A stretch of 32,086 bases of DNA from Candidatus Nanopelagicaceae bacterium (GTDB lineage: Bacteria > Actinomycetota > Actinomycetes > Nanopelagicales > Nanopelagicaceae): NCBI GenBank assembly GCA_947460855.1, contig CANHGU010000007.1, positions 1 to 32,086 of the forward strand, read 5' to 3'. Numbering within the stretch: position 1 is the first letter of the stretch; every line of letters begins with the position of its first letter. Both the position numbers and the translations under genes were made by a program. This document shows, piece by piece, positions 13,717 through 15,204 of the stretch. Under the pieces are notes generated by a model. That model worked only from the letters and a program-made list of their open reading frames with translations. It made no database searches and was not told the DNA's origin.

Positions 13717-13908
13717 ATGAGAATCTCAGAGCTTCGCACCAGGCTAAACAATTACTTCCCTGATGCCGATACCTACGCCCGGGATATCATCCATAGCGAG
13801 CTAGGCGGAATTAGCGTTAATGCGGCAATTGATATCGGTATGGAGCCGGATGAGATTTGGAAGGCGGTAGTGCGTCATAACCCTGCGATGCCTGATAAAT
13901 ACAGATAA
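13717..13908 (+). CDS. DUF3046-like small protein
   Basis: 63 aa immediately upstream of recA; the canonical place for DUF3046 in actinobacteria. Confidence 0.7.
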   Translation: MRISELRTRLNNYFPDADTYARDIIHSELGGISVNAAIDIGMEPDEIWKAVVRHNPAMPDKYR

Positions 13909-13936
13909 CGGCGTGTCCTAGCCCGATTTTACCCTT

Positions 13937-13952
13937 TCGAACAGTTGTTCGA
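13937..13952. promoter_or_regulatory. LexA/SOS box (Gram-positive/actinobacterial type)
   Basis: TCGAACAGTTGTTCGA: perfect palindromic arms TCGAAC/GTTCGA, GAAC-N4-GTTC core, upstream of recA. Confidence 0.88.
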
Positions 13953-13958
13953 TACAAT
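13953..13958 (+). promoter_or_regulatory. Putative recA -10 element
   Basis: TACAAT immediately 3' of the SOS box. Confidence 0.6.
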
Positions 13959-13964
13959 TATCCT

Positions 13965-14100
13965 GCCCAACCAGAGCGGTTCCACAGTTCCGCTGGCCTC
14001 TCAGCCAGCCGTCAGTGATGTTCCGTACCTTCTGGACCGAAGATATGACCTCGTTGTAGGAGATGAAATCCCTAGAGCTGGTCAAGGAGAAGAAAGGAAA
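13965..14100 (+). ncRNA. Candidate structured 5' leader of recA
   Basis: GC-rich (58 of 100 bases in 13961-14060), several stems including GCTGGC-CTCTCA-GCCAGC, between SOS-box promoter and recA SD. Confidence 0.5.
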
Positions 14101-14109
14101 TAAATCTTT

Positions 14110-15204
14110 ATGGCCTCTGCAAATAGAGAACCACAAGATGATAAAAAAGAAGATAAACGATCTAGCGATCGTAGTAAATCCCTAGATACCGCCCTTGCCC
14201 AAATCGAGCGTCAGTTCGGTAAAGGATCGGTAATGAAGATGGGAGATCGCAAAGCTGTTGCCATGGAGGTAATCCCAACTGGCTCAGTTGCATTAGATAT
14301 CGCTCTCGGCGTTGGCGGCTTGCCACGTGGTCGAGTAGTTGAGATCTATGGCCCAGAGTCCTCCGGTAAAACAACGGTGGCATTACATGCAATTGCTAAT
14401 GCTCAAAAAGCTGGTGGCATCGCTGCCTTTATTGATGCTGAGCATGCATTGGATCCAGAGTATGCAAAGAAACTTGGCGTTGATATTGATGCGCTATTAG
14501 TTTCTCAACCAGATACTGGCGAACAGGCACTTGAAATTATGGATATGTTAGTTCGATCAGGTGCAATTGATATTGTAGTTGTTGACTCAGTTGCCGCATT
14601 AGTACCACGTGCTGAAATCGAAGGCGAGATGGGTGACTCACATATGGGTCTTCAGGCACGCCTTATGTCACAAGCACTTCGTAAAATGACTGGCGCACTA
14701 CATCAATCAAACACCACTGCAATATTTATTAATCAGTTACGGGATAAGATCGGTGTTTTCTTTGGTTCACCAGAGACTACTACTGGCGGAAAAGCACTTA
14801 AGTTCTACGCCTCTATTCGTTTAGATGTTCGTCGAATTGAAACTTTAAAAGATGGTCAAGATGCGGTTGGTAATAGAACTCGCGTAAAGATCGTTAAAAA
14901 TAAGGTTGCGCCACCATTTAAACAAGCTGAGTTTGACATCATTTATGGTGTTGGAATTAGCCGTGAGGGATCATTAATTGATATGGGTGTTGAGATTGGA
15001 ATTGTTAAGAAATCTGGCGCCTGGTTTACCTATGAGGGTGATCAACTAGGACAGGGTAAAGAGAATGCCCGTGCATTCTTAATTGATAATCCAGATCTGG
15101 CCAATGATATTGAAACCAAGATCAGAGCTTCATATGTGCCAACTGAGGTAGATCCTGCCTTAGTAGCAGCAGTTGATGAAGCAACCGCTGATGTTGAGTT
15201 CTAA
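14110..15204 (+). CDS. recA: Recombinase A
   Basis: [48 protein letters not shown]. Confidence 0.99.

Follow-up and report, generated by a model that had tools for sequence, protein, structure and literature searches.

A candidate covarying leader RNA between the LexA-controlled promoter and recA of acI actinobacteria, overlapping the position of a PafBC-type promoter

The control of recA is the textbook case of a transcriptional response to DNA damage and is usually viewed as a matter of transcription being on or off. In the acI actinobacteria, an abundant freshwater lineage, the region upstream of recA raises the question of whether the messenger itself carries a further layer of control. 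The window analysed here (the whole stretch of 32,086 nt, from a genome that is 57% complete at 0.73 Mb) has a gap of 201 nt between recA and the preceding 63-aa open reading frame (ORF; 13717–13908), and within this gap 58 of 100 bases are G or C (13961–14060), compared with 41% over the window as a whole. An earlier note on this DNA, whose named words, coordinates and G/C count all proved correct on recheck, had proposed a structured cis-acting RNA at this position, with hairpins competing for the same bases on top of LexA control.

Homologues of recA were found in 142 of 151 genomes of the family and 144 of 148 of the class. The promoter is of the LexA/SOS type: the SOS box overlaps it, and LexA is encoded, its DNA-binding domain being detected in the window's genome and in three relatives (apart from recA, LexA and WYL/PafC, genes were named by inspecting their sequence by eye). 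From the position of the −10-like element, the SOS transcript would be expected to start near 13965. An SOS box precedes the RNA core at nearly all loci of the family, and some genera have a further hairpin-like segment, ~20 nt long, in the interval between SOS promoter and core (L050, L065–L068, L076–L079).

Table 1. Features of the recA upstream region, in coordinates of the window.
Feature	Position	Strand	Basis
SOS box CGAACAGTTGTTCG (LexA operator)	13938–13951	+	unchanged across 23 genus loci
−10-like TACAAT of SOS promoter	13953–13958	+	sequence; TACAAT/TACACT kept in genus
P1 5' strand CCAGA, partner 14031–14035	13971–13975	+	100% paired, 145 sequences
P2 5' strand GCGG, partner 14023–14026	13976–13979	+	identical in 145/145
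P3 5' strand CCAC, partner 14015–14018	13982–13985	+	sequence variants keep pairing
P4 variable hairpin GCTGGC-CTCTCA-GCCAGC	13992–14009	+	many independent paired changes
Position-equivalent of PafBC promoter (RecA-NDp, recA P1), CCGTCAGTG-N8-TACCTT	14009–14031	+	position, conservation
P3 3' strand GTGA, shared with PafBC-like −26 element	14015–14018	+	covariation
P2 3' strand CCGT	14023–14026	+	in minimum free energy fold of window and of relatives
Four-base bulge ACCT between P2 and P1, 3' side	14027–14030	+	identical in 145/145
P1 3' strand TCTGG	14031–14035	+	covariation with 5' strand
P5 hairpin TGACC...GGTCA, adjoins first AAGGAG	14046–14084	+	same shape, 17 genus leaders folded
Shine–Dalgarno region AAGGAG...AAAGGAA	14084–14099	+	sequence, kept in genus
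recA coding sequence, 364 aa	14110–15204	+	ORF, plus homologues in relatives

The recA leader consists of a core of ~65 nt, formed by P1–P4, and the hairpin P5 near the ribosome-binding site. The minimum free energy (MFE) structure computed from the window alone, before any alignment, already contained P1, P2, P3 (as CAC/GUG) and P4, and the P1–P4 layout was recovered with small variations on folding 12 of 12 diverse cores. Folding stability by itself is compatible with chance (z of −1.71 for the whole 151-nt leader at −43.1 kcal/mol, and −1.33 for the 85-nt core), and it is the comparison of relatives that carries the evidence. The MFE pair 13982–14020 is not upheld by that comparison (10% paired); 13982 pairs with 14018 where the latter is G. 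P3 in the window comprises 13983–13985/14015–14017, the outer C13982–A14018 being open in the genus and C–G in relatives; most members have CCAC/GUGG, and clade g16 has CCAAC/GUUGG, CUAAC/GUUAG or CCAUC/GAUGG. The bulge between P2 and P1 sits within an unchanging block, TCCGTACCTTC (14022–14032), and the inner stem of P5 differs between members of the genus with pairing retained.

The hairpins drawn in the earlier note fared unevenly in this comparison. The GCTGGC/GCCAGC stem is real and corresponds to P4 (13992–13997/14004–14009), which has undergone many paired changes and is up to ~25 nt longer in other genera. Of its supposed competitor, CCGCTGG paired with CC(AG)AGCGG, only the GCGG/CCGC part is widespread; changes at 13993 can be matched at 14008, and 13976 never changes. 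The switch built on the two stems is not supported, the alternative GCGG/CCGC pairing having a median probability of 0.01 in 135 leaders. A third stem keeps its inner four pairs (14025–14029/14034–14037), which are conserved and possibly form an alternative to P1/P2, but loses its outer pairs, and the TGAC (14046–14049) that was to close with GTCA (14011–14014) belongs to another hairpin, P5.

Identity over the core is 0.925 within the genus, against 0.668 at four-fold degenerate sites of recA, and 0.840 against 0.513 over five genera. Within the genus the core is almost frozen, and the variable parts are the P4 loop, the stretch leading up to the start codon and the gene further upstream. Positions 13969, 13971–13972, 13974–13979, 13982, 14022–14032 and 14034–14035 are unchanging across 145 distinct cores, an invariance that is partly built in, as the pattern used to collect them fixes much of 13971–13979 and 14022–14035; a pattern-free, model-based search at order level recovered the same loci.

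P2 and most of P1 are beyond the reach of covariation because they never vary. A structure-unaware MAFFT alignment of 61 members has double changes at 11 of the 20 pairs. Its covariation score is 0.202, compared with 0.061 ± 0.007 after shuffling (a value reached in 0 of 500 shuffles) and at most 0.095 with slid partners. For 100 members aligned to the model, an alignment that leans toward the structure, the score was 0.252 against 0.070. When ranked by an APC-corrected G statistic, the top seven of ~3,300 column pairs were all annotated pairs, and we regard this ranking as the stronger argument because a tree-based null gave only modest E-values for individual pairs (0.017 to 1.1). Change events were counted on a tree of the 145 members, with an alignment made blind to structure. 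In the middle of P1, the pair 13973–14033 occurs as A-U, U-A and C-G, with three independent compensatory events that changed both sides each time (p = 0.0005), and pairs of P3 and P4 changed jointly and repeatedly, with six events at 13994–14007 and six at 13995–14006. Covariation beyond that of shuffled alignments is what a structured cis-regulatory leader RNA would be expected to leave, and together with conservation beyond the SOS box it bears out the central proposal of the earlier note: the DNA separating recA from its LexA-controlled promoter encodes a structured cis-RNA, and one under selection. On these comparisons, a selected RNA fold almost certainly exists ahead of recA.

Of 151 order-level genomes, 134 gave a covariance-model match, all but two of them with a single copy, and good scores in a class sample of 395 genomes were confined to acI/Nanopelagicaceae. 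The leader is present in 11 genera of this one family, with nothing convincing outside it. Weaker class-level matches (22–29 bits) do not lie at recA in the genomes where both could be mapped, and the best pair among them (L132, L137) are near-identical loci that appear protein-coding by eye. A pattern search of GTDB placed the core at recA in 119 of 120 loci, the relatives being freshwater actinobacteria; a match in Niabella (L246) is without the core and was taken as chance. Among the 235 loci with a core, every one whose downstream sequence is long enough runs into a recA-like frame, and the SOS box is close upstream in nearly all, so the leader holds a constant position 5' of one gene, recA. 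In a RecA protein tree the genera that carry the RNA group together as a single clade (90/74; present in 88% of bootstrap trees), with the RNA-lacking g4, g9 plus g12, and g5 outside it, and a single gain is apparently the simplest reading of this distribution. Several public records carrying the acI leader bear the titles Bifidobacterium breve or Clavibacter (L222, L225, L272, L278, L287, L244, L285), names that look wrong.

The comparison with Rfam that the earlier note had called for returned no family matching the leader. None of the Rfam 15 covariance models matched the window above its gathering threshold, and in a permissive search of 13900–14160 the best sub-threshold hits had E-values of 1.5 or worse and scored well below the cut-off. 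A pattern search of viral contigs gave no match. No recA leader RNA is described for this lineage in the open-access literature, a weak form of absence.

What the earlier note missed is that the 3' strands of the fold overlap the position of the recA PafBC promoter. Mycobacterial recA has a LexA promoter, P2, with an SOS box, and a PafBC promoter, P1, of the RecA-NDp type (PMC5656591, PMC6789036), for which the consensus is tTGTCRgtg-8nt-TannnT (PMC5656591). In the window, GTCAGTG-N8-TACCTT (14011–14031) overlaps the 3' strands of P3, P2 and P1. The segment CCGTCAGTG-ATGTTCCG-TACCTT has the N8 spacing and the TANNNT −10 element, but its −26 element reads CGTCAG in place of the T-first TGTCRG. 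Because a match with two mismatches is not rare in such a window, the promoter argument is carried by position and conservation. Of the 40 recA regions compared from elsewhere in the class, outside this family, nearly all hold a TGTCRG-type promoter behind the SOS box, in the same order, and since PafC is also present here we take the leader motif to be the position-equivalent of P1. The window's genome has a WYL match and a PafC-like ORF followed by a TatC-like ORF, and a PafC homologue occurs in 24 of 24 family genomes tested. Among the RNA-bearing cores 140 of 145 have C in place of T, whereas 35 of 36 promoters that could be scored in other families have T; the RNA-lacking g9, g5 and g12 retain T in the −26 element. 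The CGTCRGTG form occurred nine times in ten genomes, eight of these at recA. Canonical TGTCRGTG sites stand ahead of further genes, among them dnaE2-like, radA-like and recR-like ones (names by eye). Given the C for T and the single use of CGTC outside recA, the internal PafBC-type promoter may be dead.

This overlap amounts to a natural experiment, in which relatives with a relocated promoter separate the bases that serve the DNA from those that serve the RNA. A PafBC-type promoter lies upstream of the SOS box for 52 cores, mostly of g16 with the addition of L041 in g3. Of these 52, 29 have lost an intact leader GTCRGTG, against 2 of the 93 cores without such a promoter; Fisher's test of strict upstream matches against the rest gave p = 3e-9, a value that is too small, as g16 is one clade and the events are non-independent. 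P3 pairing is maintained in the members whose leader word is broken. These patterns suggest that RNA pairing is under selection of its own and that promoter selection still maintains the −26 word in the other cores despite its C, and they indicate that DNA and RNA constraints act on the same bases.

How might such a leader act? The reading that we favour, and consider rather probable, is that of a cis-acting leader, recognised by a trans factor, that tunes the translation or stability of the SOS-type recA mRNA. A single origin in the acI/Nanopelagicaceae lineage would have placed it ahead of recA, downstream of the LexA-controlled promoter, and its 3' strands would reuse bases of an older PafBC-type promoter, one stretch of DNA serving as both promoter element and RNA fold. 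SOS transcripts starting near 13965 would carry the fold; were the internal PafBC-type promoter still functional, its transcripts would begin near 14038 and lack it. A start near 14038 is not by itself contrary to the RNA, because the 3' strands overlap the PafBC promoter position. In the least certain steps, the trans factor, for which a protein is the likeliest candidate, might contact the unpaired or bulged invariant bases (13969, 14027–14030), and translation or stability of the recA mRNA might be what it affects. We place the output there because neither a terminator nor consistent sequestration of the Shine–Dalgarno region was seen. No intrinsic terminator was found on the + strand between 13700 and 14250, which also argues against the attenuator that had been suggested, and no conserved stem that would sequester the Shine–Dalgarno region was seen in the leaders, where its accessibility is intermediate (median 0.38).

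The folding calculations bear on whether the leader switches. P1 and P2 are favoured in most leaders (median probability 0.74 and 0.81), and two local hairpins that would exclude them, AACC/GGUU (13969–13972/13978–13981) and GUACC/GGAC (14025–14029/14034–14037), fit nearly all 145 sequences, their bases being mostly invariant anyway. A true riboswitch would make the core an aptamer for a damage-linked small molecule or second messenger, with P1/P2 swapping with these hairpins, and the invariant bases held by the loops and bulge, the near-universal fit of both hairpins and the restriction of 14036 to A or G opposite U14026 agree with this idea. We nevertheless find it doubtful: most of the alternative pairs involve bases that P1/P2 would keep invariant in any case, GUACC/GGAC is predicted at low probability in most leaders, known aptamers give no match, the RNA is limited to a single gene in a single family, and neither a terminator nor the Shine–Dalgarno accessibility reveals an expression platform. 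It is likewise unlikely that a new RNA class senses DNA damage or a linked signal by swapping P1/P2 for the two local hairpins over a still-active PafBC promoter; if true, one DNA segment would encode two layers of the damage response at once.

That no expression platform is visible would also suit a leader that passively stabilises the mRNA or shields its 5' end by structure, without a partner in regulation, as would P5, a leader hairpin that likewise varies freely with its pairing kept, but the more than 20 invariant bases of the core, some of them unpaired, exceed the needs of a passive stem and leave this explanation distinctly unlikely. Selection on DNA only, with an extended PafBC/LexA promoter whose inverted repeats are protein sites and an RNA fold that is incidental, is very unlikely. 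The 3' strands do occupy the PafBC promoter position and the RNA-lacking g9 retains TGTCGGTGGTAATCCGTACCTTCGG; against this, P1, P3 and P4 show repeated compensatory changes, TANNNT does not require the invariant CC of TACCTT, and RNA pairing survives breakage of the promoter word, on which ground a pure promoter explanation was rejected. As for a leader processed into, or acting as, a trans-acting small RNA, the compact conserved fold and long invariant blocks would fit, but the element is always joined to recA and a terminator of its own was not seen, which makes this highly improbable.

Among known systems, the mycobacterial recA promoter pair is alike in gene, in having an SOS box with a PafBC-type promoter upstream, in the exact N8 spacing and in TANNNT, and LexA and PafC are encoded in both settings. 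The acI P1 region differs from it in having C for the conserved T and in lying within a covarying RNA fold, of which the other families examined show none. Candidate leader RNAs from comparative genomics (PMC2864571, PMC2704228) are similarly lineage-restricted, covarying and upstream of a gene; the acI leader is set apart from them by the lack of an Rfam match, by its gene being recA and by sharing bases with a promoter. With metabolite riboswitches it has in common conserved unpaired bases and possible alternative pairings, but it shows no terminator, no consistent Shine–Dalgarno sequestration and no gene other than recA. A cis-acting leader of the kind we favour would add a post-transcriptional layer to recA control in an abundant freshwater lineage, and the analysis provides a testable RNA family of 100–145 aligned members.

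Further features of the surrounding promoters emerged from these comparisons. Upstream of the recA SOS box, GGCGTGTC (13910–13917) is a GCGTGTC-type word. Such a word, as GCGTGTC or as its reverse complement GACACGC, falls within the 80 nt before the SOS box in 41 of 51 sequences from the family and in 30 of 37 from other families; both orientations occur, and the surrounding DNA would predict 0.007 per zone. In g16 (L069–L075, L189) a canonical PafBC-type promoter, TGTCAGTG-N8-TANNNT, directly adjoins the recA SOS box, and a similarly compact arrangement precedes dnaE2-like genes (L188, L205, L209). In several genera, a TGTCRGTG-type site stands before a short ORF that opens with M(I/L)I(D/N)C and is followed by an ORF resembling a coiled-coil secreted hydrolase (L182, L183, L185, L187, L191, L192, L195, L199, L204), a possible PafBC target.
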